From assembly GCA_944390485.1 (NCBI GenBank), contig CALXPQ010000003.1, positions 124,001 through 188,000 on the forward strand: 64,000 nucleotides of DNA, read 5' to 3'. The notes under the pieces are model-generated. The model saw only the letters and a list, made by a program, of their open reading frames with translations, was not told the origin of the DNA and did not search any database. This document shows positions 8,470-25,521 of this stretch, piece by piece; the first letter of the stretch is position 1, and each line of letters starts with the position of its first letter. Position numbers and translations under genes: made by a program. The stretch comes from Veillonellales bacterium. Its GTDB lineage: Bacteria > Bacillota > Negativicutes > Veillonellales > Dialisteraceae.

Positions 8470-8497
8470 TGGACAGAGAAAGGATTTCTGCTATAAT
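8470..8497 (+). promoter_or_regulatory. Promoter of the YjiG/YjiH-like pair
   Basis: TGGACA, 16-base spacer, TATAAT with an extended TGC. This is the first promoter of the accessory block. Confidence 0.7.
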
Positions 8498-8526: not shown

Positions 8527-9009
8527 ATGGGAGACGTCAAAGAAGAAAAAACATTGTCAATCCCCGAATACTTCATGCTCGGGGCGAAGAAGGGCTTTTA
8601 TATCACGGTGGAACTCATCGCGCCGGCCATGGTCATGGCTTACGTGATCATCACTTTTCTGCAGCTGTCGGGGCTCATGCCGCTCATCGGGCAGGCGCTG
8701 GGGCCGGTGATGGGCCTCTTCGGGCTGCCCGGCGAGGCGTCGGTGGTGCTCCTCGCGGCGTTCTTCGCGAAGGCGGCGGGCGCGGCCACGGCGGCGTCCA
8801 TGTACGCGGCGGGCGTGCTCACCGCGGAGGAGGCGACGATCCTCTTCCCGGCGTGCATCACCATGGGGACGCTCGTGGGCCACTTCGCGCGCATCGTGCT
8901 GGTGTGCAAAGTGCGGCCCCTCTATTATCCGGTCCTGCTGGCGACGCCCATCATCGACGCGGTGATCGTCATGTACCTCACGCGCTTCGTGCTCGCGCTG
9001 TATCTGTAA
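8527..9009 (+). CDS. YjiG-like nucleoside-recognition/Gate domain membrane protein
   Basis: Polytopic inner-membrane protein of 160 aa with four or five hydrophobic segments and a Gate-type stretch with repeated small residues (AAFFAKAAGAATAASMYAAG). With the next gene it resembles the E. coli YjiG (about 153 aa) and YjiH (about 227 aa) pair, which sits beside the isoaspartyl dipeptidase gene iadA. The transported substrate is not established for the family. The pair is the first unit of a block of racemase and amidohydrolase genes, which suggests transport of a peptide- or acyl-amino-acid-like compound (inference). Ten bases separate it from its partner gene. Confidence 0.7.
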   Translation: MGDVKEEKTLSIPEYFMLGAKKGFYITVELIAPAMVMAYVIITFLQLSGLMPLIGQALGPVMGLFGLPGEASVVLLAAFFAKAAGAATAASMYAAGVLTAEEATILFPACITMGTLVGHFARIVLVCKVRPLYYPVLLATPIIDAVIVMYLTRFVLALYL

Positions 9010-9019
9010 GGAGGCTGCC

Positions 9020-9688
9020 ATGAGTCAGAATATCGAACATCAGAATGTGAAAGAGCTCCATGAGCAGAAGGTCACGTGGAAAGGCTGGCTGTCGCTCCTG
9101 TTCCTCGTGGTGTGCTTCTCCGGCGTCTTCGCGCACTCGGACAGCTTCCTCCGCGCTTTCGACCTGACGGCGCTCCTCGGCCAGTTCGGCCACGCCGAAG
9201 GGGCGAAGGTGAGCCTGCAGGGCACGGGCGGCTCCGGCGCGCGGGAGGCGTTCGTCCTGGCGCTCACCATGGCGCCCACCACGATGATCGCCCAGGGGCT
9301 CATCGAAGTGTGTCAGCATCTGGGCGCGCTCACCGCGGCGGGGAAACTGTTCCAGCCGTTCTTCCGGGTGCTCCTCGGCGTGCCCGGCGTGGTGGGCCTC
9401 GCCTTCGTGTCGAGCTTCACCTCGTCCGACGTGGGGGCCTTCATGACGAAGAACATGGCCGACGAGAAGCTCATCACCGACGACCACCGCACCATCTTCG
9501 CGGCGTACCAGTACGCGGGTTCCGCCACGATCAACAACACCATCGGCTCCGGCGCGGCGCTCCTGCCGATCACGCTCCTCCCGGTGGGGATCATCATCGG
9601 TCTCATCATCGTGGTGAAATTCATCGGCGCGAACATCGTCCGATTCTACCTCGTGTGGCACCACCGCCGCCATCCGGAAGCGGAATGA
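9020..9688 (+). CDS. YjiH-like nucleoside-recognition/Gate domain membrane protein
   Basis: Polytopic membrane protein of 222 aa. Hydrophobic segments lie near residues 24-42, 72-90, 115-135 and 180-205. The Gate-type polar motif SSFTSSDVGAFMTKNMADEK, followed by TINNTIGSGAALLP, fits the YjiH half of the YjiG/YjiH pair. It is almost certainly translated with and acts with the preceding protein. Start ATG follows AAGGAGGCTGCC. A terminator follows, so the pair is its own transcript, although the racemase promoter overlaps that terminator. Confidence 0.7.
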   Translation: MSQNIEHQNVKELHEQKVTWKGWLSLLFLVVCFSGVFAHSDSFLRAFDLTALLGQFGHAEGAKVSLQGTGGSGAREAFVLALTMAPTTMIAQGLIEVCQHLGALTAAGKLFQPFFRVLLGVPGVVGLAFVSSFTSSDVGAFMTKNMADEKLITDDHRTIFAAYQYAGSATINNTIGSGAALLPITLLPVGIIIGLIIVVKFIGANIVRFYLVWHHRRHPEAE

Positions 9689-9703
9689 CCGGACGGTCCC
9701 GGA

Positions 9704-9737
9704 GAAACGCAGCGCTCTGCAGCGGCGTTTCTTTTTT
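9704..9737 (+). terminator. Intrinsic terminator after the YjiG/YjiH-like pair
   Basis: GAAACGC / GCGTTTC outer stem with inner GC pairs, then six T. Confidence 0.8.
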
Positions 9738-9745
9738 GTTATAAT
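9737..9745 (+). promoter_or_regulatory. Extended -10 promoter of first racemase gene
   Basis: TGTTATAAT begins in the T-tract of the preceding terminator, 33 bases before the ATG. A -35 would have to lie within the terminator stem. Confidence 0.6.
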
Positions 9746-9777
9746 GATTTCATATTGGTTTGCCATGGAGGTGCGCT

Positions 9778-10890
9778 ATGAGAATTGACCGCGTAGATAT
9801 CATCCGGGTGCTGAATCCTTTCCGGCATCCTTTCCAGACGAGCTTCACCCGCTTCGAGAACCGGGACGCGCTGCTCGTGAAGATCTATTCCGAAGGGCTC
9901 GTGGGCTGGGGCGAATGCAAAGCCTTCTACGGCCCCTTCTACAATCCGGAGGACAACGGCACGGTGCTGCACGTGCTGGGCGACATCATCATCCCCCGCA
10001 TCCTGCATCAGGAGGTGGAGAGCCCCGAAGCGTTCATGAAGAGCTTCGCCTACATCCGGGGCAACCGCCTCGCGAAAGCGGCGGTGGAAAACGCCCTGTG
10101 GGACCTCATGACCCAGCGCACGGGGAAATCACTGAAGACGCTCCTCGGCGGCACGCAGAAGGAGATCAAGGTGGGCGTGTCCCTCGGCATCGAGAAGGAC
10201 ATCAACGTGCTCTTCCATGAGATCGAGCATTATCTGGAGCTGGGCTACCACCGCACGAAGATCAAGATCCATCCGGGGAAGGACATCGAAGTCATCCGTG
10301 CCATCCGGAAGGAATTCGGCGACATCACGCTCACCGTGGACGCGAACTCCGCCTACACGCTGGACGACATCGACCTCTTCCGCGCCATGGACGAGTACCA
10401 TCTCCAGTACATCGAGCAGCCCCTCGGCGAGGAGGACATCGTGGACCATGCCGCGCTCCAGAAGGCCATCGAGACGCCGATCTGCCTCGACGAGAGCATC
10501 GTGTCCTACGAAGCGGCGGAAGCGGCCATCCGCCTCGGGAGCTGCAAGGTCATCAACATCAAGTCGTCCCGCTGCGGCGGCCTCTATGAAGGCAAGCGCA
10601 TCCACGACCTGTGCGTCGAGCACGGCCTGCCCGTGTGGTGCGGCGGCATGACGGAGCTCGGCATCGGCCGCGCGCAGAACATTTCCTTCGCGAGCCTGCC
10701 GGGGTTCACGGAACTCGCGCACGACGTGGCCGCGGCGAGCCGGTACTTCGAGGAAGACATCACCGATCCCATGGTGGACATCACGGACCGCTGCACTATC
10801 GTCGTCCCGGACGAGGAGAACGGCATCCGTTACACGGTGGACGAAAAGGCGGTGGACCGCATGACCGCCGGCCACTGGATCTATCGGTAA
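9778..10890 (+). CDS. Enolase-superfamily N-acylamino-acid racemase / OSBS-type protein (paralogue 1)
   Basis: 370-aa member of the MenC type 2/N-succinylamino-acid racemase subgroup of the enolase superfamily. Catalytic residues are all visible: K161-I-K163 at the end of the second barrel strand, metal ligands D188 (VDANSAY), E213 (IEQPL) and D238 (CLDES), and the opposite base K262 (NIKSSRCGG). The capping domain carries PFQTSFTRFENRDALLV and VGWGEC. No other menaquinone genes are nearby, while amidohydrolases and transporters are, so racemisation or epimerisation of N-acyl amino acids or dipeptides is likelier than o-succinylbenzoate synthesis. The ATG at 9778 has GGAGGTG just upstream; an in-frame ATG at 9760 does not. 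Confidence 0.85.
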   Translation: MRIDRVDIIRVLNPFRHPFQTSFTRFENRDALLVKIYSEGLVGWGECKAFYGPFYNPEDNGTVLHVLGDIIIPRILHQEVESPEAFMKSFAYIRGNRLAKAAVENALWDLMTQRTGKSLKTLLGGTQKEIKVGVSLGIEKDINVLFHEIEHYLELGYHRTKIKIHPGKDIEVIRAIRKEFGDITLTVDANSAYTLDDIDLFRAMDEYHLQYIEQPLGEEDIVDHAALQKAIETPICLDESIVSYEAAEAAIRLGSCKVINIKSSRCGGLYEGKRIHDLCVEHGLPVWCGGMTELGIGRAQNISFASLPGFTELAHDVAAASRYFEEDITDPMVDITDRCTIVVPDEENGIRYTVDEKAVDRMTAGHWIYR

Positions 10891-10905
10891 GGCCATATGA
10901 AAAAG

Positions 10906-10949
10906 AAATCACGCCCGTCCTGCTTCGCGCAGGGGAGCGTGATTTTTTT
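10906..10949. terminator. Bidirectional terminator between racemase 1 and the regulator
   Basis: AAATCACGC / GCGTGATTT stem around an inner CCTGC-GCAGG hairpin, with A-rich left and T-rich right flanks. It can stop transcription from both convergent genes. Confidence 0.75.
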
Positions 10950-10964
10950 GTGGGAGACCGCGGG

Positions 10965-12281
10965 TCAGCCGCGGATGCGGAGCTCGAGGAGGCGGCTCGG
11001 CCGGCCCGTGCGGGCGGTGTACTGGCGGCCCGCCTCCCGCGCGAGGCCGCCGTCGATGAGCTTCAGGAGGATGCGGTTCATCGTGCGGGGCGTCACGCCG
11101 GTGAAGTCGGCCAGCTCCGCCGAGGTGAAGCGCGTGCGGCCCGTGTCCCGGCACAGGCGGTACAGGAGCGTCAGGATGCGCACGGAGACACCGGTCTTCG
11201 CCGCGAGAGGCAGGAACGTCTCCTGCACAGGGTGCTCCGGCTCCTTCTGCTTGAACCGGCCGTCCCGCGAGAGGGGCAGGGGCGAGGTGAAGCCCGGCCC
11301 GATGAGGTAGGCCTGGTCGCTTCCGCGGAGGACCGCCCGGGCGAGGGCGCGCTCCGCGTGGAGCTTCGCTTCCTCGGCGGACGCGCCGAAGCCGAAGCCC
11401 ATGGAGACCGTGAGGGGCGACGCGCCGCGCACGCGGGCGGGCAGGAGGATCTGCCGGTAGTGGTTGGTGGCCGCCTCGATGAGCGCCCGCGTGGAGATGA
11501 GGAGGTACCCCGCAGGCGGCCGCTCGATGCACGCCGCCCGGATGTCCCGGGCGAACTGCCACACCGGACGGGCCGCCGCGAGGAGGGCCGCGCCCAGATC
11601 GTACCCGCGGTCCGCGGGGAACTGCTCCTCCGGCGCGGTGAAGCGGAGCGCGATGGCCGCGAGACCGCTGCCCCGGCTCCTGTGGAGCTCGTACGACAGG
11701 ATGATCCGTTCGATGCCCGCGCGGATGTCCTCGAAGGACGGCTGGAGGACGTACGCCGGCACGCCCCGCTCCTCGAGGAGCGTCCGCACGCGGTAAAAGA
11801 TGGTGACGCAGAAATCGGCGGCGCCGGACCGGACGAGCGCGGCCATGCGGTCCGCCTCGAGGGCGAGCTGCTCCTCGTTGTATTCGCGGGCCGGGAGGAG
11901 CGTCACCTGATACGACTCCGGCGGGATGCCGATCTCGTGGAAGGCGAGGCGGTACACGTCCTCCCGCGGCCAGTCGGTGGCGATGCGCATGGCCCGGCCG
12001 GCCACGGCGGCGCGGAAGAGGAGGCGCAGCAGCGCCGACGCCGAGCGGGGGATGGCGGTCCACGGCACGGACGGGGCGACCGTCTCCGCGGCGTAGCGGC
12101 GCGCGGTCTCCCCGAGGAAGAGGAAGGCGTCCGCCCGGTTCTGCTGGCCGGACAGGAGATGGGGGATCTCCAGGATGGTGCGGTAGGCGACGGGGAGGAA
12201 CTCCGTGTCCGGGAATTCCCGGGCGGTGAAGCGCAGGAGCTCCGGCACGATCTCCACGGGGGCGACGAGGCCGATTTTCAT
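10965..12281 (-). CDS. Transcriptional regulator with sensor, degenerate GGDEF-like and C-terminal winged-helix regions
   Basis: 438-aa protein on the opposite strand within the catabolic block. The N-terminal 190 residues look like an alpha/beta sensor (KIGLVAPVEIVPELLRF, later ADAFLFLGE and ADFCVTIFYRV). The middle (about 200-330) has a GGDEF/cyclase-like pattern ending VSMGFGFGASAEEAKLHAER but no GGDEF signature. The last 85 residues hold a winged-helix candidate (FTSAELADFTGVTPRTMNRI). The specific family was not recognised. The start is taken as ATG at 12281, because AGGTGAT lies five bases upstream; a GTG three codons earlier lacks a ribosome site. It faces the MFS gene across 174 bases and probably controls the block (inference). 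Confidence 0.6.
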   Translation of the reverse strand: MKIGLVAPVEIVPELLRFTAREFPDTEFLPVAYRTILEIPHLLSGQQNRADAFLFLGETARRYAAETVAPSVPWTAIPRSASALLRLLFRAAVAGRAMRIATDWPREDVYRLAFHEIGIPPESYQVTLLPAREYNEEQLALEADRMAALVRSGAADFCVTIFYRVRTLLEERGVPAYVLQPSFEDIRAGIERIILSYELHRSRGSGLAAIALRFTAPEEQFPADRGYDLGAALLAAARPVWQFARDIRAACIERPPAGYLLISTRALIEAATNHYRQILLPARVRGASPLTVSMGFGFGASAEEAKLHAERALARAVLRGSDQAYLIGPGFTSPLPLSRDGRFKQKEPEHPVQETFLPLAAKTGVSVRILTLLYRLCRDTGRTRFTSAELADFTGVTPRTMNRILLKLIDGGLAREAGRQYTARTGRPSRLLELRIRG

Positions 12282-12298
12282 GGATATCACCTGGTTTT

Positions 12299-12348
12299 GG
12301 ACAGAATAAAGGTCTATTCAGGACAGCCTGTTTCTTCTATGATACAGA
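12299..12348. promoter_or_regulatory. Candidate operator and promoter between regulator and MFS gene
   Basis: Direct repeat GGACAG at 12299-12304 and 12321-12326 (22 bases apart), inverted repeat GAATA-N6-TATTC at 12304-12319 and palindrome ACAG-C-CTGT at 12323-12331. A possible MFS promoter overlaps them: AGGACA (12320-12325), 17 bases, TACAGA (12343-12348) with TG at 12340. The -35 and -10 are weak, as expected for an activated promoter. Confidence 0.45.
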
Positions 12349-12355
12349 TAAGTCA

Positions 12356-12440
12356 ATTTCATGTAAAGCAGGCTGCGGCCTGCGAGGCAAGGGAGCCACG
12401 GGGAGGCGGCAGGAGCGCGTCCCTGTGGCTCGCTGCGCAG
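12356..12440 (+). other. Structured 5' leader of the MFS gene
   Basis: Two strong stem-loops precede the start: GCAGGC-TGCG-GCCTGC (12368-12383) and a 12-bp stem GAGCCACGGGGA / TCCCTGTGGCTC (12393-12431). No U-tract follows, so they are not a classical terminator. The second ends just before the GGGAGG ribosome site. Not matched to a known riboswitch. Confidence 0.5.
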
Positions 12441-12455
12441 ATGGGAGGTTTTAGT

Positions 12456-13667
12456 GTGAGCTGGCTGAAAAAATTTCAGACGGAAAACCGATACGTGGTT
12501 TTCTTCTTTCTCTATGTAGGGTTCTGCATCTCCTACATCGACCGCTCGGCTATCGGGCTGGCTCTGCCGTCCGTGTCGAAGGATTTCAATCTCGCCCCGA
12601 CGGAGATGGGCGTCGTCATCAGCGTCTTCTTCATCGGCTATTCCATCATGCAGATCCCCGGCGGGTGGTTCTCGGATAAATTCGGGTCGAAGACCGTCAT
12701 CTGCGTGGCGCTCGCCCTGTGGTCCGTCTTCACCTTCACCACCGGCCACGCGCAGACGCTCGCCGGGCTGCTCTTCCTGCGGTTCGTCTTCGGTCTCTGC
12801 GAAGGGCCGTACGCGGGCTCCTGCTTCCGCGCAGTGGCTGAATATTTCCCCCGCGAGGTCCGCGCGAAATACACGGGATTCGTCCTCTCCTCGAACTACA
12901 TCGGCAGCGCCCTCGCTCCGGTGGTCGTGGTGCCGCTCATCCTCTGGTTCGGCTGGCGCGGCATGTTCCAGGTGCTCGGGCTCATCGGCCTGGCATACGT
13001 CTTCCTCTACGTCTTCCTCGTGAAGCCCCGCAAGCCGGCGGAAGAAAAGAAAGACGACAAGAAGAATCAGTCGAAATACTTCCTCCAGCTGCTGAAAATG
13101 CCGCTGGTGTGGAAACTCATCCTCTGCGCGTTCTGCGTGTCCTGCATCAATAAGGGGCTCGACGCGTGGGTCCCCACGTACCTCATCGCGGAGCGCGGCA
13201 TCGACCTCAAGGCGGTCGGCTACCTCACGCCGATCCCCTTCATCGCGTCCTTCATCTCCAGCGCCTCCTGCGGCTGGATCATGGATAAATATTTCGACAA
13301 CAAAGAAAAATACCTCATCGCCCTCTCCGGCGGCGGCACGGCGTTCTTCCTCTTCCTCATGTACAATGCGGAGACCATCGCCACGGTCGTCATCTTCCAG
13401 TGCGGCGTGTATTTCTTCAAATCCACCATCATGGCCCTCACCGTCGGCCTCACGCTGAAAGTCGTCACCGGCGCCATCTCCGGCTCCGCGTCCGCCCTCG
13501 TCAATATGGGCGGTCAGGTGGCGGGCTTCCTGTCCCCGGCCTTCATGGGCTTCCTCTACGCTTCGAGCGGTTCTTTCGGCTCGGTCTTCTACTATCTCAT
13601 GACGATGGGCGCGCTGTGCGTCGTATTCGCACTGTCCATCCGCAAGAGACCGGAAGTCCAGGCCTGA
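12456..13667 (+). CDS. MFS transporter (anion:cation symporter-like)
   Basis: 403-aa major facilitator with about 12 membrane segments. The MFS signature region GGWFSDKFGSKTVICVAL lies after helix 2, and the early FCISYIDRSAIGLALPSVSKD is typical of the anion:cation symporter group that carries organic acids. The translational start is taken as GTG at 12456, seven bases after GGGAGG; a much longer open frame upstream is artefactual because it runs through the opposing regulator. Between regulator and second racemase, it is the natural importer for the substrate of the downstream racemase and amidohydrolases (inference). Confidence 0.85.
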   Translation: MSWLKKFQTENRYVVFFFLYVGFCISYIDRSAIGLALPSVSKDFNLAPTEMGVVISVFFIGYSIMQIPGGWFSDKFGSKTVICVALALWSVFTFTTGHAQTLAGLLFLRFVFGLCEGPYAGSCFRAVAEYFPREVRAKYTGFVLSSNYIGSALAPVVVVPLILWFGWRGMFQVLGLIGLAYVFLYVFLVKPRKPAEEKKDDKKNQSKYFLQLLKMPLVWKLILCAFCVSCINKGLDAWVPTYLIAERGIDLKAVGYLTPIPFIASFISSASCGWIMDKYFDNKEKYLIALSGGGTAFFLFLMYNAETIATVVIFQCGVYFFKSTIMALTVGLTLKVVTGAISGSASALVNMGGQVAGFLSPAFMGFLYASSGSFGSVFYYLMTMGALCVVFALSIRKRPEVQA

Positions 13668-13690
13668 TTCATTCCATAATCATTTCCGGA

Positions 13691-13728
13691 GAGCCGGTCC
13701 CTTCCCGCGAGGGAATCGGGCCGGCTCT
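13691..13728 (+). other. Intercistronic hairpin between MFS and second racemase
   Basis: Long stem GAGCCGG...CCGGCTC enclosing TTCCC-GCGA-GGGAA. It is followed by only TTCC, so it is more likely a processing or stability element, or a leaky terminator, than a full stop. Confidence 0.5.
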
Positions 13729-13753
13729 TCCTGCACAGTAAGGAGGCTGCAGC

Positions 13754-14866
13754 ATGAAAATCAGCAAAGTGGTATTGCGCCGGATGCATCTGGACTTCAA
13801 GAAGCCGTTCCGCACGAGCTTCGGTCTCATCGAGAAAGATTTCTCCCTGATCGAGCTCTGGGACGACGAAGGCAATGTGGGCCGCGGGGCGTGCTCCGCG
13901 TTCCTCCGCCCGTGGTACAACGAAGAGACCACCATCGGCGCGCTCTATGTCATCCAGAATTACCTCATCCCGTCCCTTTTCGACATGGGCGACATCAAGG
14001 ACCCGGTCCATTTCTTCGACGAGACCGGCTGGATCCGCCGGAACCGCATGGCCCGCGCGTCCGTGGACTGCGCGCTGTGGGAATTGTACTCGAAAGAGCA
14101 GGGCCTGCCGGAATACAAAGCTCTCGGCGGCGTGAAGAATGAGATCGAAGCGGGCGTGTCCCTCGGCATCGAAGAGACGCCGGACAAGCTGCTCCAGACG
14201 GTCGAGCAGTACATGAAGCAGGGCTACCGCCGCGTGAAATGCAAGATCAAGCCGGGCAAGGACATCAACTACCTCAGCGCGGTGCGGAAAGAATTCGGCG
14301 ACATCCTGCTCATGGCGGACGCGAACTCCGCCTATACCCTGGACGACATCAATCTCTTCAGGGAAATGGACGACCTGAATCTCCTCATGATCGAGCAGCC
14401 GCTCGCTTCGGACGACATCGTGGACCACCGCCATCTCCAGGCGGCCATCAAGACGCCGATCTGCCTCGACGAGAGCATCGACTCCGTGGACGACGCGCGG
14501 CGCGCCATCGAGCTCGGAAGCTGCAGGATCATCAATATCAAAGTCGCCCGCGTGGGCGGCCTCACCGAAGCGCGGCGCATCCAGCAGTATGCCGGCGAGC
14601 ACGGCGTGTACTGCTGGTGCGGCGGCATGGTGGACGACGGCGTGGCGCGCGGCCACAATCTCGCCGTGGCGACGCTTCCGTACTACCGCTATCCGAACGA
14701 CATCCCCGGCAGCGACCGCTACTACGCGGTGGACATCGTCACGCCGTCCACCTACATCGACAGCCATGCCATGATCCGCGTGCCGGATCTGCCGGGCACG
14801 GGCTTCGATCTGAATCAGGAAGTGGTCGATCAGCATACGGTCGAGAAATGGGAGTACACGAAATGA
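13754..14866 (+). CDS. Enolase-superfamily N-acylamino-acid racemase / OSBS-type protein (paralogue 2)
   Basis: 370-aa paralogue of the 9778-10890 protein. Catalytic residues are K162-C-K164, D189 (ADANSAY), E214 (IEQPL), D239 (CLDES) and K263 (NIKVARVGG). The loop after barrel strand 7 differs from the first copy: CGGMVDDGVARGHN here against CGGMTELGIGRAQN there, which suggests a different substrate. Start ATG follows AAGGAGGCTGCAGC. The stop overlaps the start of the first M20 gene (ATGA), so racemase and amidohydrolase are translationally coupled. That coupling argues for an N-acyl-amino-acid or peptide substrate rather than menaquinone synthesis. Confidence 0.85.
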   Translation: MKISKVVLRRMHLDFKKPFRTSFGLIEKDFSLIELWDDEGNVGRGACSAFLRPWYNEETTIGALYVIQNYLIPSLFDMGDIKDPVHFFDETGWIRRNRMARASVDCALWELYSKEQGLPEYKALGGVKNEIEAGVSLGIEETPDKLLQTVEQYMKQGYRRVKCKIKPGKDINYLSAVRKEFGDILLMADANSAYTLDDINLFREMDDLNLLMIEQPLASDDIVDHRHLQAAIKTPICLDESIDSVDDARRAIELGSCRIINIKVARVGGLTEARRIQQYAGEHGVYCWCGGMVDDGVARGHNLAVATLPYYRYPNDIPGSDRYYAVDIVTPSTYIDSHAMIRVPDLPGTGFDLNQEVVDQHTVEKWEYTK

Positions 14867-16014
14867 AGACGATGCAGGATATTTTCGCGGCCATCGACAG
14901 CGCGAAGCCGGCCATGATGGAGACCTGGCGCTCCCTCGTGGACCGGGACTGCGGCTCCGGCAACAAAGCGGGCGTCGACGCGGTGGGACAGGACATCAAA
15001 GCTTTCCTCGAACCGCTGGGATTCAAAGTCCGCTTCCACAAATATGAACAGGCGGGCAACATGCTCGTCGCCGAGTACGGCGACATGACGAAGCCTTTCG
15101 TCATCCTCACCGGCCACATGGACACGGTCTTCGCGGACGGCACCGCGGCGGAGCGCCCCTTCACCGTGAAGGACGGCCGCGTCACCGGCCCGGGCGTGCT
15201 GGACATGAAAGGCGGCATCACCGTCATGCTCTATGCGGTGAAGACCCTCCTCGAGGCGGGCTGGGACCGGTACCCGCTGAAGATCATTCTCGCCGGGGAC
15301 GAAGAAGTGGGTCACGGCTGGTCGGACGCGGCGTCGGACTACCGGAAAGAGGCGAAGGGCGCATGCATGGCCTTCAACTATGAGACCGGCTTCATCGACG
15401 ACGGCATCGTCCTCGAGCGCAAGGGCTGCGCGCAGTACCGCTTCGATTTCCACGGCGTGGGAGCCCACGCGGGGAACAATCCGGAAGACGGCCGGAGCGC
15501 CGTGAAGGAGCTCTGCCACAAGGCCCTCGAGATGGAAGCGCTCACCGATTTCGCCGAAGGCACCACCGTCAATGTGGGCGTCATCTCCGGCGGCACCGTG
15601 CCGAACGCCATCCCGGAGAACGCCTGGTGCCGGGTGGACGTGCGCTTCAAGACCATGGCGGGCATCGAGCGCGTGGAAAAGGCCTTTAAGGAAATCACCG
15701 ATGAAACGTACATCGACGGCGTCACCACCGCCTGCCGCTGCGAAGTGAAGATGGGCGCCATGGAGCGCCTCGCTTCCTCGGAAGCGCTCTTCGAGAAGGC
15801 GCAGGCCGTCGCAGCCGAAGCGGGCCTGCCGGCCATGAAGGCCATCGCCGTGGGCGGCGGCAGCGACTCCGCCTACGTCACCGCCGAAGGCGTGCCCACC
15901 CTCTGCGCCATGGGCGTCAAGGGCCAGTACAATCACACCGTGCGCGAATGGGCGGAAGAAAGCTCTCTCACCGAGCGGGCGAAGCTCTCCGCGGCGCTGC
16001 TCATGAAACTCTGA
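14863..16014 (+). CDS. M20 family metallopeptidase/amidohydrolase (paralogue A)
   Basis: 383-aa zinc hydrolase of the ArgE/DapE/carboxypeptidase G2 group. Metal ligands and the catalytic acid are in place: H85 (GHMDTVF), D114 (GVLDMKGG), E147 and E148 (GDEEVGH), E174 (NYETGF) and H358 (YNHTVREW). The dimerisation lid domain lies at about 185-295. Such enzymes cleave N-acyl or peptide bonds to a free amino acid. The ATG at 14863 overlaps the racemase stop; a longer frame extends upstream only within the racemase. The next gene is its paralogue, eleven bases away. Confidence 0.87.
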   Translation: MKTMQDIFAAIDSAKPAMMETWRSLVDRDCGSGNKAGVDAVGQDIKAFLEPLGFKVRFHKYEQAGNMLVAEYGDMTKPFVILTGHMDTVFADGTAAERPFTVKDGRVTGPGVLDMKGGITVMLYAVKTLLEAGWDRYPLKIILAGDEEVGHGWSDAASDYRKEAKGACMAFNYETGFIDDGIVLERKGCAQYRFDFHGVGAHAGNNPEDGRSAVKELCHKALEMEALTDFAEGTTVNVGVISGGTVPNAIPENAWCRVDVRFKTMAGIERVEKAFKEITDETYIDGVTTACRCEVKMGAMERLASSEALFEKAQAVAAEAGLPAMKAIAVGGGSDSAYVTAEGVPTLCAMGVKGQYNHTVREWAEESSLTERAKLSAALLMKL

Positions 16015-16024
16015 GGAGGCAGCT

Positions 16025-17194
16025 ATGGAAGCAAGAGATACAGCGTATCAGTGGGTGGACGCCCACAGAAATGACATGATCGATCTCTGGAAAGAGATGG
16101 TCACCATCGACTCCGGCATCGGCGTCAAGGAAGGCGGCATGGCCATGGGAAACCTCTGCGCGGGCATCCTCGAAGACCTGGGCTTCTCCATCCGCCGCGT
16201 GTCCTACGAGAAATGCGGGGACACCATCATCGCCGAGCGGGGCGACATGACGAAGCCCTACATCATCCTTATGGGCCACATGGACACAGTCTTCTTCCGG
16301 GGCGAACCCGAGCGCCGTCCATTCACCATCAGGGACGGCAAAGCCTACGGGCCGGGCGTGCTGGACATGAAGGGCGGCGTGGCCATCCTTCTCTCCGCGC
16401 TCCGCGCGCTCGACGCGGCGGGCGTCAGCGATTTCCCGGTGAAAGTCATCCTCGTGGCGGACGAAGAGCCGGCGCACTGCTTCTCCGACGCGCCGCAGCT
16501 CATCGAGAAAGAAGCCAAGGGCGCGAAGTGCGCGTTCAATTTCGAGACCGGCTTCACGGACAACAGCCTCGTGGTGCAGCGCAAGGGATGCTGGCGCTTC
16601 TTCGTCGAAGTCTTCGGCCGCGGCTGCCACGTGGGCAACGACCCCGAGAACGGCCGCAGCGCGATCCTCGAGATGGCGCATAAGATCATCGAGATCGAGA
16701 AGCTCACCGACTTCTCGAAGGCGTACAACGTGAACGTGGGCACCATCGAAGGAGGCACCGTGGCGAACGCCGCGCCGGCGTACTGCAAGGTGGAGTGCGA
16801 CTTCCGCTACACCCATCCGGAAGACCTGCCCGTCCTCCGGCAGAAAGTGGCCGACGTGTGCGCGAAGACCTGGGTGCCGGACACCGTGACGAAGCTCACG
16901 GACAGCTTCGGCTTCGCCGTCATGCCCCGCCTCGAAGGGAACATGAAGCTCCTCGAAGTGGCGCAGGAAGTGGCGGCGGAGAGCGGCTTCCCCCGGCCGG
17001 AAGCGCGGCTCTGCGGCGGCGGCAGCGACGCGGCGTACACCACCGCGGCGGGCGTGCCGACCCTCTGCGCCACCGGCGTGGAAGGCGCGCGGAACCATAC
17101 CGTCGAAGAATGGGCGGACGTGGAGAGCTTCTTCCTCCGGGTGAAGCAGATGGCAGGCATCCTGCTGAAAGTGAAAGACCGCGAGTCCTTCTGA
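16025..17194 (+). CDS. M20 family metallopeptidase/amidohydrolase (paralogue B)
   Basis: 389-aa paralogue of the preceding gene with the same ligand positions: H85, D114, E147, E148 and H358. The active-site strand reads VADEEPAH where paralogue A reads AGDEEVGH. The two share the TGFxD context after the acidic pair and the GGGSD(S/A)AY(V/T)T near the C terminus. Start follows GAGGAGGCAGCT. An intrinsic terminator ends the operon. Two hydrolases beside two racemases point to paired substrate ranges, for example different side chains or opposite stereochemistry; this is inference. Confidence 0.86.
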   Translation: MEARDTAYQWVDAHRNDMIDLWKEMVTIDSGIGVKEGGMAMGNLCAGILEDLGFSIRRVSYEKCGDTIIAERGDMTKPYIILMGHMDTVFFRGEPERRPFTIRDGKAYGPGVLDMKGGVAILLSALRALDAAGVSDFPVKVILVADEEPAHCFSDAPQLIEKEAKGAKCAFNFETGFTDNSLVVQRKGCWRFFVEVFGRGCHVGNDPENGRSAILEMAHKIIEIEKLTDFSKAYNVNVGTIEGGTVANAAPAYCKVECDFRYTHPEDLPVLRQKVADVCAKTWVPDTVTKLTDSFGFAVMPRLEGNMKLLEVAQEVAAESGFPRPEARLCGGGSDAAYTTAAGVPTLCATGVEGARNHTVEEWADVESFFLRVKQMAGILLKVKDRESF

Positions 17195-17256: not shown

Positions 17257-17284
17257 TTGACATCGCGCCTGTTTTTGCTATACT
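17257..17284 (+). promoter_or_regulatory. Near-perfect promoter of the thiW leader
   Basis: TTGACA, 16-base spacer, TATACT with extended TGC. It is one of the strongest consensus promoters in the window. Confidence 0.85.
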
Positions 17285-17290
17285 GGAGCC

Positions 17291-17500
17291 GATAGAATTG
17301 GGTCCGATCGAGGGGGAGCGCCCTGGATCGCAGGTGGTTGCATAGCGAGGGAACCCGTGTTTCGGGGTGAGAGGGCACTTTGGAGTGCCGACCGACCGGC
17401 GTCTTGCCATGGCGCTGTGCACGGCACCCGGAGCCCGGAAGGCTTCACGCTCCACACAGGCCGCGGCGGCCGGAGATTTCGCGGAGGAGTGAAGAAACTC
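17291..17500 (+). ncRNA. Long structured leader RNA before thiW, class not identified
   Basis: About 210 bases between promoter and start are non-coding and fold readily. Stems include GATC-x-AGGG around 17308-17331 (one mismatch), CCCG-TGTTT-CGGG, GGCACT-TTGG-AGTGCC and GGCCG-CGG-CGGCC. thiW genes are commonly controlled by TPP riboswitches, but the TPP signatures CUGAGA and CCUGAUC were not found here. It could be a divergent riboswitch, another leader class or an sRNA that reads into thiW. No clear terminator precedes the thiW start. Confidence 0.5.
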
Positions 17501-18031
17501 ATGGAAAAAGATCAGAAAATCAGGCGGCTCGTCCTGCTGGCCATGCTCATCGGGCTGGGCGTCGTCATCTCGCCGATCCTGCGCATCGAGGGCATGTGCC
17601 CCATGGCGCACCTCATCAATATCGTGTGCGCCGTCCTCATGGGGCCGTGGTACGCCCTGCTCTGCGCGACGCTTATCGGCATCATCCGCATGACCCTCAT
17701 GGGCATCCCGCCGCTGGCGCTCACCGGCGCGGTCTTCGGGGCCGTCCTGTCGGGCCTGCTGTACCGCGCGTCCCGGGGGCGCATCCTCGCCGCCGTCATC
17801 GGCGAGGTCATCGGCACCGGCATCATCGGGGCCGTCGCCTCTTATCCGGTGATGGAATTTCTCTACGGCCGCACCGGCCTCTCGTGGATGTACTACGTGC
17901 CCAGCTTCATCTGCGGCACCCTCATCGGCGGCTCCATCGCCTTCGCCCTGCTCACCGTCCTCTCCCGGAACGGCACGCTCCGGGAATTCCAGCGGAAGCT
18001 GGGCATCCAGGTCTACGACCGGAGAGCGTGA
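17501..18031 (+). CDS. thiW: Energy-coupling factor S component ThiW
   Basis: 176-aa membrane protein with five or six hydrophobic segments, matching the ThiW family, predicted substrate-binding subunit of an ECF transporter for the thiazole moiety of thiamin. Characteristic stretches are ISPILRIEGMCPMAHLIN, LMGPWYALLCATLIGIIRM and GEVIGTGIIGAVASYP. The energising module (EcfA/EcfT) is not in the window and would be shared. The ATG at 17501 follows GGAGGAG; an in-frame GTG at 17489 lies too close to that site. A terminator follows immediately, making this a single-gene unit behind its long leader. Confidence 0.85.
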   Translation: MEKDQKIRRLVLLAMLIGLGVVISPILRIEGMCPMAHLINIVCAVLMGPWYALLCATLIGIIRMTLMGIPPLALTGAVFGAVLSGLLYRASRGRILAAVIGEVIGTGIIGAVASYPVMEFLYGRTGLSWMYYVPSFICGTLIGGSIAFALLTVLSRNGTLREFQRKLGIQVYDRRA

Positions 18032-21126: not shown

Positions 21127-24100
21127 ATGAAAAAGAAATTACTCACGAAACAGATTCTTATGGCCCTTGCTATGAGCGCCGTCGTATGCACCAATGGTAT
21201 GGCAGAGGAACTTGGCCAAATTACCGGTTCCTATAATAATGATGGTAAACCTTTTACGGAAGATGTTACGTTTGAAAACACAGACCCAAAGAAAGCCTCT
21301 ATTGAACCAGAAAATGGTGCTGTAAATATCCATATCAAAACAGAAGAAGAACATTCCATTACCTTGGATTCGGCGGGCAGTGGGATTCACGCGCAAAACG
21401 GAGCTGGTACCATTGAATTGAATTCGTCCGCAAATAATACAATTTCATTTGGTGGAGAAGGAAATGGCATAACTACTAAGAATTCAGACAGTGAAAAGAT
21501 TTCTATCGCATTGAAGGCGGCACAGGACAATGTCATCGATGCCAAAGGTGAGACAATGGAAGCCGGTCAGGATGGGATTCATCTGGAAGGAAAAGGCCAG
21601 ACAGAAATCACACTGGACGCAGGTGGTAATAATAAATTTACTGTCAATGATGATGGGATCCGCACAACTGCTGGAAGTCAGGGTGAGATTACCGTATCTG
21701 CTGGTGTGGGTAATATTATTGCTGCGGGCAATAACGGCATTCATCATGAAGGTAGCGGCACCATCACTCTGTCGGCGCAGACTAATACCATTACTGCAGG
21801 AAATAACGGGATTCAGGTTGGAAAAGGCGGGAATGTGTCGTTGGACGCTGGTATAAACCGTGTCAGCGGCGTTAATAACGGTGTGTATGTTTCCGGTGAA
21901 GACAGCAAGGCGACCATGAAAGGGGATACTACGATTATTGTCAATGACGCAACTTCGACCAATCTGAATAATACCAGTGGTATCCATGTGACTGACGGCG
22001 GCAGTTATGTCGTTGACAAGACGGACGTAGATAATATGAGCATTGACGTTACAGCGCATGATACAGATTCCTATGGCATTTTTGCTGAAAATAACAGCAC
22101 AGTAGAAATTGATACTAATAAATTTACTTTATCTGTAAAAAAGGATATGAATAGTTCAACTGTTAACAAAGGCGCAGTATATGGAATTGCCGGTCGTCAA
22201 GGTGCATCCACTACAATTTCTACAAGTGGGGATGTAACCGTTACGGTAACAGGGAATGGGGAACAGGCAAACGGGATTTATTCTGAGAATCTTTCAAGTA
22301 CAAATGCAAATGTTCAAAATAGCATTCAATTAACAGGAAATTCTATCAACCTCACGGTGGACGGAGACATTGAAAAAAGTGAAATTGATTCGAGTGCCAT
22401 TAGGCTTTATCAAGGTGGATTGGGTACATTGTCAAATACAGTAACAATTACAGGCACAGGAAATAAAGATAATTCCATTACCAGTACGACTAAAGGCATA
22501 AAAATTTTCGCAACCAGCGGATTGGCAACTGTTAATATTACTTCTGAGACAGAAAGCAATTATTTAATATCTCAGAGAGCGGCTATGGAGTTGGTTAATG
22601 GAAGTGTATTTCTAACAGCTGAGAACGGAATTAATCATATAGAAGCGACGGATAATTCAGGGTTTGGATATGGTGCTATTGCCGCACAAAGCGCACATGT
22701 AAAATTGAAAGCGAAAAGTAACGAAATTATCGGGCACTGGACAGGTGGTATTGCAGGTAGTGCAACGATAATGAACCAAAATCCTGACCAGAAAGAGCAG
22801 GGGGTACAGGTCATTGCCACGGATGGTAATAACAAGGTCATTACGGAAGGACAGTATTCCGCTATTTCTGCATCTGATGGTTATGAGATTAACTTGTCTG
22901 CGGAAAAGGGAAATAATGAGATTGCCGGTACGAGTGAAGCATATGCACAGGGAGATCCAAAAAATAGTATTATAAAGTCAACGGGAGGGGAAATAACATT
23001 AACCGCGAAAGCGGGAACTGATCCAACTGGACAAGAATCAGCATCTTTGGGAAGTAATATTATACAAAGCGACCCGGACGGAGCGGCATACTATAAGATG
23101 GATGCCCTTTATGCAGAAGGACAAACGAATGCATCCGGAGGAAGTGGGGAAAATGTGCGGACTGGCAATATTGCACTTTCCGCTGTGGCTTCTAATATAC
23201 TGTATGGTTCAGTGACAGCAAAGGCAAATGGTCATATTGAGTTAATAGGGACTGATAATTATATCGAAACGGCCACAATTTCTGATGTTTATAATGGCCC
23301 TGTTGGACCTGCTTATAGCGATGGGGCATATCATTATGCAATCCGTGCCGTAGGCGGCATGAAAAATGAAATAGAATCAGAAGGGGATTCATCACAGATT
23401 CAGATTACGGCGAATGGTGGTATAAATCGGATTATCAGTCAAGGCAATGTGCAGGCGGAAGAGGCAGACAGTGAAAGAGCTGTTTTTGCCACAGAAGGCG
23501 GAAGCATTGCCATCGACGGCACAAGTATCATCACCGCCGGCGCATGGGAAGACAATAATGCCAAGGGCTATCAGGCGAATAACAAGAGCGCTTCTCTCCT
23601 TGCGGGGACTCTCGACGAGAGCAAAGCCGTGATGGATGAGAACAAAAACATTATTTTTGACCATGCGCTTATGGGCGAAAATAACGTGTCGTCCATTTCC
23701 CTCAATTACGGCGCGGGGAGCGCTGTCACCGGGGATATCGTCGCCGGGTATGGCGGTGAGATTTCCGTCACGGAGAAGGCAGGCGATGCCGGCGTCAGCA
23801 CCATGGCGGAGGTACCGGCCATGACGCTCCGGGGCAATGTGCTTGCGGCAAATGGCGGGCAGGTGACGCTCGATCTGGGCGCGGGCAGCTACTGGGCAGG
23901 CCGCGCGGATGATTATCAGGACGCAGCCAGCGAAGAGTGGCGGAAGACGCACACTGATTTGTACAAGTCTATTTTCAGCAAGCCTGTGGAAGAAGGGACG
24001 AATCCCATCCAGATGAACGGCACTGTCGATGTGACGCTCGGACAGGCTGCGACGTGGGACGTGATGGGCCAGAGCTGGGTGACGAAGCTCGGCGGCGACG

Positions 24101-25521
24101 GCGGCATCATCGACATGCGGAACACGCTGGGCGACGAATCGAGCACGTCTCATGCGGTTCACATCGGCACGCTGAACGGCAATCACACCTTCGTGATGGA
24201 CCTGAACTGGAATCAGCATAATATCAGCGACATGCTGTACATTTATGATACGGAAAATTCCTCCGGCCAGCAGACCGTATTCCTGAATTCGCTCACCGGC
24301 GTGGAGAATATGCAGGACGGCGACAAGCTGCGCTTCGCTACGGTCAAGACGGATAAGCTCTCCTTTACGGGCGAGTACCGCGGAGAGGGCGGCTATGACA
24401 ACGGCAGCAGCAAAGTGATGGTGCGCGATACCGGGCTGAACGATATGGCGCTCACCATCGGCAATGAAAAGTATGTGGAAGCCAATCATAAAGAAAATGC
24501 AGAGTACAACGGCGAAGCGTTCTCCAATGCAAAGCCCGGCGACGAATATGTGGATACCATTTACGGGGACGGCAGCACCAACTGGTACCTGACGAGAGAA
24601 AAAGCGGAAGACGAACTGTCCGACGCAGGCAAGACGGTCATCGCCATGTCCAAAGTAAACTACTCCAATGCCGTGTACATGGACCGGCTGAACAAGCGCA
24701 TGGGCGAGGCGCGGTACATCGACGGGGACGACGGCCTGTGGGTGCGGATGCGTCATGACCGTATCGGCAAAGACGACGCCTTCCGCAGCATGAACACCAT
24801 GTTCGAGCTCGGCTACGACTGGCACGCGAAAGGACAGAAAGACGGCGAACACCGGCAAGGCGTGGCCTTCGACTACATGCGCGGCACGGCGGACTATCAG
24901 AACGTGGCGGGCGACGGCGACGTGCGCAGAGCCGGCGTGTGGCTCTACGACACGTGGCTCGGCGACAAGGGCCACTACTCTGACTACGTGGTGAAATACG
25001 GCCGCCTCTCCAATGACTTCGACATCTACGGCCGCACCACAGGTGAAAAGATCAGCGGCGACTACGACAACGACGTATGGAGCGTGAGCGCGGAGTACGG
25101 GCGGAAGAAAGACATCGGGAACGAATGGTACTTCGAACCGCAGGTGCAGGCGCAGTACGCCTATGTGACGAGCGCGGACTACACCACGAGCCAGGGGACG
25201 AAAGTAGAGCTCGACGGGATCGACAGCCTGATTGGCCGCGCGGGCTTCCGTCTCGGGCGCGACACGAGCGAAGGGAACACGGTGTACTTCAAGGCAGACA
25301 TCCTGCACGAATTCCTGGGCGACCAGAGCATCCGTGCCATGGACGCGACAGGGACGCTCTCCACGACGTATGAGAACGAAGGTACGTGGTACGACGTGGG
25401 CTTCGGGTTCTCGCACAAGATGGGAGAAGACAGCTACCTCTTCCTCGACGTGGAACACAGCTTCGGGAATGACAACGAAGACACGTATCAGGTGAACATC
25501 GGACTGAACCGAGCATTCTGA
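21127..25521 (+). CDS. Autotransporter (type Va secreted adhesin-like protein)
   Basis: 1464-aa protein. A signal peptide spans residues 1-26 (cleavage MA-EE). The passenger (about 27-1150) has beta-helix-like repeats of 24-30 residues, clearest at about 150-260, each containing a variant of AGNNGI, as expected of pectate-lyase-like fibres. The C-terminal 265 residues form an autotransporter beta-barrel with alternating aromatic strands and the terminal residue Phe (GLNRAF). Passenger codons from roughly 21,200 to 23,480 are AT-rich (one counted 60-base line is 40% GC), while the barrel is near 57%, suggesting exchange or diversifying selection on the exposed part. Ribosome site AAAGGAAG. A terminator follows. 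Confidence 0.92.
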   Translation: MKKKLLTKQILMALAMSAVVCTNGMAEELGQITGSYNNDGKPFTEDVTFENTDPKKASIEPENGAVNIHIKTEEEHSITLDSAGSGIHAQNGAGTIELNSSANNTISFGGEGNGITTKNSDSEKISIALKAAQDNVIDAKGETMEAGQDGIHLEGKGQTEITLDAGGNNKFTVNDDGIRTTAGSQGEITVSAGVGNIIAAGNNGIHHEGSGTITLSAQTNTITAGNNGIQVGKGGNVSLDAGINRVSGVNNGVYVSGEDSKATMKGDTTIIVNDATSTNLNNTSGIHVTDGGSYVVDKTDVDNMSIDVTAHDTDSYGIFAENNSTVEIDTNKFTLSVKKDMNSSTVNKGAVYGIAGRQGASTTISTSGDVTVTVTGNGEQANGIYSENLSSTNANVQNSIQLTGNSINLTVDGDIEKSEIDSSAIRLYQGGLGTLSNTVTITGTGNKDNSITSTTKGIKIFATSGLATVNITSETESNYLISQRAAMELVNGSVFLTAENGINHIEATDNSGFGYGAIAAQSAHVKLKAKSNEIIGHWTGGIAGSATIMNQNPDQKEQGVQVIATDGNNKVITEGQYSAISASDGYEINLSAEKGNNEIAGTSEAYAQGDPKNSIIKSTGGEITLTAKAGTDPTGQESASLGSNIIQSDPDGAAYYKMDALYAEGQTNASGGSGENVRTGNIALSAVASNILYGSVTAKANGHIELIGTDNYIETATISDVYNGPVGPAYSDGAYHYAIRAVGGMKNEIESEGDSSQIQITANGGINRIISQGNVQAEEADSERAVFATEGGSIAIDGTSIITAGAWEDNNAKGYQANNKSASLLAGTLDESKAVMDENKNIIFDHALMGENNVSSISLNYGAGSAVTGDIVAGYGGEISVTEKAGDAGVSTMAEVPAMTLRGNVLAANGGQVTLDLGAGSYWAGRADDYQDAASEEWRKTHTDLYKSIFSKPVEEGTNPIQMNGTVDVTLGQAATWDVMGQSWVTKLGGDGGIIDMRNTLGDESSTSHAVHIGTLNGNHTFVMDLNWNQHNISDMLYIYDTENSSGQQTVFLNSLTGVENMQDGDKLRFATVKTDKLSFTGEYRGEGGYDNGSSKVMVRDTGLNDMALTIGNEKYVEANHKENAEYNGEAFSNAKPGDEYVDTIYGDGSTNWYLTREKAEDELSDAGKTVIAMSKVNYSNAVYMDRLNKRMGEARYIDGDDGLWVRMRHDRIGKDDAFRSMNTMFELGYDWHAKGQKDGEHRQGVAFDYMRGTADYQNVAGDGDVRRAGVWLYDTWLGDKGHYSDYVVKYGRLSNDFDIYGRTTGEKISGDYDNDVWSVSAEYGRKKDIGNEWYFEPQVQAQYAYVTSADYTTSQGTKVELDGIDSLIGRAGFRLGRDTSEGNTVYFKADILHEFLGDQSIRAMDATGTLSTTYENEGTWYDVGFGFSHKMGEDSYLFLDVEHSFGNDNEDTYQVNIGLNRAF

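Follow-up and report, generated by a model that had tools for sequence, protein, structure and literature searches.

A conserved two-racemase gene cassette of the Negativicutes with a probable role in the uptake, racemization and deacylation of N-acyl amino acids

In Geobacillus and other Bacillales, an operon encoding an N-succinylamino acid racemase (NSAR), an M20 desuccinylase and a GNAT succinyltransferase turns D-amino acids into their L-forms with the help of the acyltransferase. Since their fold also produces o-succinylbenzoate, what most NSAR enzymes do in the cell is, to our knowledge, not settled. Here we describe an eight-gene block in a Veillonellales bacterium (GenBank assembly GCA_944390485.1, 1.83 Mb in ten contigs) that joins two enolase-type racemases, RAC1 and RAC2, to two M20 hydrolases (M20A and M20B), two types of carrier and a regulator (REG). 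The block lies within a 64,000-nucleotide stretch of contig CALXPQ010000003.1 (positions 124,001 to 188,000), hereafter the window. We propose, with a probability of roughly 0.7, that this cassette would provide inducible uptake, racemization and deacylation of N-acyl amino acids of either configuration. A search of the open-access literature found no description of such a two-racemase cassette. The features of the block are listed below in window coordinates.

8527-9009, forward strand: YjiG, a YjiG-type Gate-domain membrane protein (NF007811 (PRK10519), 161.9 bits, cut-off 111)
9020-9688, forward strand: YjiH, a YjiH-type membrane protein (Gate domain, 33.5 bits)
9711-9729, forward strand: terminator-like hairpin in the YjiH/RAC1 gap (consensus scan alone)
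9778-10890, forward strand: RAC1, an NSAR/OSBS (o-succinylbenzoate synthase)-subfamily racemase (TIGR01928, 347 bits)
10965-12281, reverse strand: REG, a regulator with PrpR-N-like, degenerate GGDEF-like and winged helix-turn-helix parts
12300-12325, forward strand: conserved site GACAGAATAAAGGTCTATTCAGGACA in the REG/MFS gap, a putative REG operator
12456-13667, forward strand: MFS, an MFS_1 carrier with a GTG start and GGGAGG ahead of it
13754-14866, forward strand: RAC2, a second NSAR/OSBS-subfamily racemase (TIGR01928, 313 bits)
14863-16014, forward strand: M20A, a carboxypeptidase-G2-like M20 hydrolase (Peptidase_M20 and M20_dimer)
16025-17194, forward strand: M20B, a second M20 hydrolase (Peptidase_M20 and M20_dimer)

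All eight genes stand where a first-pass annotation, made from the DNA letters, had placed them (YjiG/YjiH, RAC1, opposing REG, MFS, RAC2, M20A, M20B). The translational coupling that it had noted between RAC2 and M20A is present as an ATGA overlap at 14863-14866.

Racemases and hydrolases

Both racemases carry MR_MLE_N/C domains and score far over the cut-off of TIGR01928, a menC/NSAR model that bears the name o-succinylbenzoate synthase; the Ala-Glu epimerase models give them 69-99 bits. Among solved structures, RAC1 matches N-acylamino acid racemases of the NSAR type best (300 bits), with dipeptide epimerases at 113. The KxK motif, the Asp-Glu-Asp metal ligands and the second lysine of the MLE-type barrel are found in both proteins, and K161, K163, D189, E214, D239, K263 and R266 (numbering of the Amycolatopsis NSAR) are invariant in 23 RAC1 and 19 RAC2 homologues. 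The earlier observation that both enolases keep their catalytic residues thus holds for the pair and extends to their relatives. R266, which we take to be a marker conserved in NSAR/OSBS enzymes, is arginine in every homologue of either kind (23/23 and 19/19). By sequence, RAC1 and RAC2 belong to the NSAR/OSBS subfamily and not to the dipeptide epimerases.

The two racemases are 45% identical and form separate, long-stemmed clades in a maximum-likelihood tree (support 100/100 each), with Bacillales and other NSAR-like proteins falling between them. The tree thus speaks for two old subfamilies that have become associated, and a recent tandem duplication is rejected. Fixed differences accompany this separation: Lys48 in the lid loop is invariant in the RAC1 clade and distinguishes it from RAC2, and RAC2 carries D294 where other NSARs carry Glu. 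Because each racemase also occurs alone in some genomes (RAC1 without RAC2 in G378 and G096; RAC2 without RAC1 in G033, G141 and G207), an obligate RAC1-RAC2 hetero-oligomer is unlikely.

M20A and M20B share 46% identity, and both contain the two-metal ligands and the catalytic Glu. Their motifs fall at the same positions (GHMDT 84, GVLDMKGG 111, DEE 146, ETG 174 and H358), in agreement with the identical numbering of metal ligands reported in the first pass. The closest solved relative of M20A, at a distance, is carboxypeptidase G2 (CPG2), and the M20 proteins of Bacillales match this CPG2-like pair poorly. Relatives of M20B occur in most RAC1 loci; in the M20 tree, whose branches are long and whose deep forks are weak, only close relatives were compared.

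Recurrence, carriers and regulation

The two other genomes of the genus carry the full gene set as well, with the order unchanged and with ftsH and thiW on either side (3/3 with that of the window). Variants occur within the family, where one genome (G004) shows no YjiG/YjiH on its short contig and another (G009) carries MFS twice but is without M20A. Across the class, 31 of 381 genomes searched gave strong matches. Of 23 RAC1 loci, 17 have RAC2 within 10 kb, 20 have an M20 gene, 18 have one carrier or more and 13 have REG; these loci leave out the window itself, and the counts are lower bounds, as some contigs are short. Elsewhere the arrangement may be a RAC2-RAC1 tandem, RAC2-M20-REG-DUF5058 pair-RAC1, or RAC1-DUF5058 pair-M20-RAC2. 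Gene order shifts between families, and it is therefore linkage, not order, that has been retained. The RAC1 and RAC2 pair was also found in Fusibacter ferrireducens. The cluster is conserved and found mainly in anaerobic Negativicutes, and this recurring linkage answers the concern, raised with the original salvage proposal, that the neighbourhood might prove random in related genomes. We also observed a glycyl radical enzyme and its activase recurring beside RAC1/REG loci (L171:337-2709, L172, L173, L174:12421-14787, L213 and L216); this enzyme resembles choline trimethylamine-lyase at 752 bits, under the model cut-off of 1050.

Three carrier types occur in the 23 RAC1 loci: MFS in 8, a two-gene DUF5058 pair in 11 and YjiG/YjiH in 4. 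The best profile for the MFS protein of the window is an anion/galactonate-type subfamily, with a score under that profile's cut-off. At L163-L166, L169, L171, L172, L175, L176, L178 and L038, the carrier is replaced by a DUF5058 membrane protein and a partner without a family match, a probable new two-gene transporter. YjiH accompanies YjiG in the loci inspected and in Escherichia coli K-12, where the order iadA-yjiG-yjiH confirms the statement in the first-pass annotation that the pair neighbours isoaspartyl dipeptidase (IadA). In 20 YjiG loci sampled from a class-wide search and chosen independently of the racemases, an M20 gene lies within 3 kb of YjiG in 18 and IadA in the remaining two; the chance expectation for M20, from its density in the genome of the window, is about 0.055 per locus. 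Because the sampled loci share ancestry, a nominal P-value cannot be taken as a real probability here. All four YjiG/YjiH copies in the genome of the window have an M20 gene nearby. A further arrangement is seen in G010, where an M20A relative, YjiH, YjiG and REG stand together and the RAC2 search found no racemase. Given this combination, the block in the window looks like a G010-type M20A-YjiH-YjiG-REG module joined to an MFS-racemase-M20B module. The open-access literature yielded no description of YjiG/YjiH function or of DUF5058.

REG is not covered by any Pfam family; winged-helix models recognize its members, and a GGDEF-like model does so weakly. An AlphaFold model of REG (mean predicted local distance difference test score 84, predicted template modelling (TM) score 0.59) contains two Rossmann-like lobes, a GGDEF-like domain and a winged helix. 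Its first part is similar to PrpR-N structures (2q5c and 2pju, target-normalized TM 0.62-0.77) and its second to GGDEF domains, and direct reading of the sequences shows that the GGDEF signature is not retained. Behind its PrpR-N part, REG has no AAA+ sigma-54 activation domain, and instead carries the degenerate GGDEF-like domain and the winged helix. An M20 gene lies within 3 kb of REG in 14 of 20 loci sampled from a class-wide search. REG is best described as an unnamed regulator family, usually found beside M20 genes.

The 26-base GACAGAATAAAGGTCTATTCAGGACA site in the REG/MFS gap is kept in 5/5 genomes from three genera, and a reversed control pattern gave no hits. A further copy occurs ahead of the second MFS gene (MFS2) of G009, and G004 has a weaker one directly ahead of RAC1. 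The site is likely a REG operator. In G009 REG itself is split into two open frames (L035:3575-4990), though the operator-like site is duplicated there; regulator decay or a sequencing error is possible.

The block is probably more than one operon, since a terminator-like hairpin separates YjiH from RAC1, a promoter-like site precedes YjiG (8470-8497, by consensus scan) and REG is on the opposite strand, divergent from MFS. Terminator-like sites over the region numbered 11 in the consensus scan, against 5.9 expected. An alternative start for RAC1, the in-frame TTG at 9760, was judged less likely. The guanine-plus-cytosine content of the block (0.638) matches that of the window (0.634). ThiW (17489-18031) was considered as a block member and ruled out; it is an energy-coupling factor thiamine-precursor component with its own promoter-like site (17257-17284), and thiW adjoins the block within the genus only. 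Downstream, at 21127-25521 of the window, lies a gene for an autotransporter-like protein of 1464 amino acids that is repeat-rich and has a barrel-like C-terminal region.

Proposed pathway and competing explanations

We hypothesize that MFS, with YjiG/YjiH as a second carrier, imports N-acyl amino acids. Judging from their residues, RAC1 and RAC2 would interconvert the N-acyl-D and N-acyl-L forms by a 1,1-proton transfer that uses two lysines and a metal-stabilized enolate. M20A and M20B, as their family suggests, would then hydrolyze the L form, pulling the equilibrium and releasing a free L-amino acid and the acyl group. REG may use its PrpR-like domain to sense a small ligand, and may act at the site between the REG and MFS genes. 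More tentatively, two racemases may be kept because their substrates differ, with RAC2 handling N-acyl-methionine-like compounds and RAC1 other N-acyl-D-amino acids, perhaps of the kind handled by the D-aminoacylase and D-serine/D-alanine enzymes of related loci.

Clues to these substrates come from related loci. Four RAC1 loci contain an N-acyl-D-amino-acid-deacylase-like amidohydrolase (D-aminoacylase), named from domain and sequence with no curated model over its cut-off. Others hold a D-serine ammonia-lyase (over cut-off), D-amino-acid transaminase-like proteins, an alanine racemase and a type-III pyridoxal phosphate (PLP) enzyme. A MetQ-type methionine-binding lipoprotein adjoins RAC2 in all three RAC2-only loci (G033, G141 and G207) and in 0/23 RAC1 loci; the G207 locus also has MetN and MetI, and an M20 gene is present in 2/3 of these loci. 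MetQ of Neisseria meningitidis is reported to bind both L- and D-methionine (PMC6739813), and NSAR activity has been measured on N-acetyl-methionine (PMC8142540). Together, the MetQ neighbour, its ligands and the known NSAR substrate suggest that RAC2 may act on N-acyl-methionine-like compounds, with other substrates left to RAC1. The salvage of N-acyl or D-amino-acid-containing compounds through two arms, as first proposed, gains support from the D-aminoacylase, D-serine ammonia-lyase, D-amino-acid transaminase, MetQ and M20/IadA neighbours. Peptidoglycan and host N-acyl amino acids, which the first pass named as possible sources, are speculative. As a separate observation, the G207 locus (contig C27, L181/L285) places RAC2, M20 and MetQ/MetI/MetN beside two nitrogenase-like subunits (under all cut-offs) and what, judged by eye, are Cys/Met PLP enzymes; the locus resembles an island for acquiring sulfur, perhaps one of the methylthio-alkane reductase type.

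The origin of the acyl group bears on whether the cassette instead carries out the classical conversion known from Geobacillus, in which endogenous D-amino acids would be N-succinylated by an acyltransferase encoded elsewhere, racemized and desuccinylated to L-amino acids. The enzyme chemistry is the same, and a GNAT acyltransferase sits beside the racemase in 6/8 other NSAR loci (including Geobacillus, Cytobacillus and Lysinibacillus), several of which also have M20. However, a homologue of the Bacillales NSAR-linked GNAT was found in 0/21 RAC1 genomes, while the same search found the positive control, G158 (E 9e-45). The absence of a dedicated acyltransferase from the block, remarked on in the first pass, is thus borne out and extends to a GNAT homologue anywhere in the genome; an acyltransferase elsewhere was not found by homology to the NSAR-linked GNAT. 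The M20 proteins of the window are also CPG2-like and poorly matched by those of Bacillales, and the cassette has carriers instead. We regard the classical conversion as quite unlikely. Because the GNAT is absent from the 21 RAC1 genomes tested, N-acyl amino acids taken up from outside are most likely what the cassette consumes, and the simplest reading is that the acyl groups would arrive together with the imported substrate. In the control genome G158 (L180), also of the Negativicutes, an NSAR belonging to neither clade adjoins the GNAT, resembling the Bacillales arrangement.

Salvage of dipeptides or isopeptides, with RAC1 and RAC2 as dipeptide epimerases, the M20 proteins as dipeptidases and YjiG/YjiH carrying beta-aspartyl or other dipeptides, would fit the E. 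coli iadA-yjiG-yjiH order and the presence of IadA beside YjiG in 3/20 Negativicutes loci, and both dipeptidases among M20 proteins and dipeptide epimerases within the enolase superfamily are known. We nevertheless consider it unlikely, since the NSAR/OSBS model outscores the Ala-Glu epimerase models (347/313 against 69-99 bits), the solved matches of RAC1 favor NSARs over dipeptide epimerases (300 against 113 bits), and the D-aminoacylase and MetQ neighbours suit N-acyl amino acids better. The idea that RAC1 and RAC2 make o-succinylbenzoate for menaquinone and are out of place among M20 genes draws on TIGR01928 being the best family model and on the frequent bifunctionality of NSAR/OSBS enzymes. 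It is largely refuted and hardly credible: MenD was over its cut-off in 0/22 RAC1 genomes (the other men genes were not searched genome-wide), no men genes were seen on visual inspection of the neighbourhoods, and the two enolases are tightly linked with M20 and carriers. Enolases sitting beside men genes, the situation that the first-pass annotation had set against its own proposal, were thus not encountered, and a menaquinone role is rejected on the MenD search.

Several observations weigh against the uptake, racemization and deacylation of N-acyl amino acids. The D-amino-acid enzymes lie outside the block of the window itself, the link between RAC2 and MetQ is drawn from three loci, and three RAC1 loci (G094, G095 and that of Fusibacter) have no M20 gene nearby. 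Additionally, M20 sequence cannot separate hydrolysis of acyl-amino acids from that of dipeptides or aminobenzoyl-glutamate, and an unrelated acyltransferase could be encoded elsewhere in the genome. Finally, the operator assignment is based on five related genomes, and in the window the site was not found ahead of YjiG or RAC1.

Tentatively, and as somewhat short of probable, the cassette may be viewed more broadly as an undescribed conserved catabolic system. It would combine two ancient NSAR clades whose substrate ranges complement each other (N-acyl-methionine and the like for RAC2, other N-acyl-D-amino acids for RAC1), dedicated importers, among them YjiG/YjiH as a family that generally carries the substrates of M20 hydrolases and isoaspartyl dipeptidases, and a new regulator family.

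Relationship to described systems

If the proposed pathway is correct, these anaerobes would be able to use N-acyl-D-amino acids. A setting without MenD and without the NSAR-linked acyltransferase allows the role of an NSAR to be read from its neighbours, and offers a substrate lead, methionine, for one of the racemases. The analysis also points out an unannotated regulator family and gives the uncharacterized E. coli YjiG/YjiH a concrete proposed function as a carrier for M20 or isoaspartyl-dipeptidase substrates.

The cassette resembles the Geobacillus NSAR operon in linking an NSAR-subfamily racemase to M20, and the same chemistry is expected. Unlike that operon, it has two racemases of separate clades, a CPG2-like M20 pair, carriers and a dedicated regulator, and has no GNAT in the locus or genome. 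Because this defining part was tested for and is missing, the cassette falls outside the Geobacillus-type pathway. In E. coli iadA-yjiG-yjiH, the YjiG/YjiH pair likewise adjoins a small-substrate metallohydrolase, but there the hydrolase is isoaspartyl dipeptidase instead of M20, and neither a racemase nor REG is present. The abgABT genes similarly combine an M20 pair with a dedicated carrier, the AbgT aminobenzoyl-glutamate carrier, and REG homologues in other Negativicutes lie beside M20 and an AbgT-like carrier (identified by eye); however, abgABT has no enolase racemases and uses another carrier type and another regulator. The industrial 'acylase process' couples racemization to enantioselective deacylation, as proposed here, by pairing the Amycolatopsis N-acylamino acid racemase, to which RAC1 is close in profile and residues, with an L-aminoacylase. 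Whereas that process is an assembled enzyme pair, the cassette is natural, regulated and importer-linked, with two of each enzyme.

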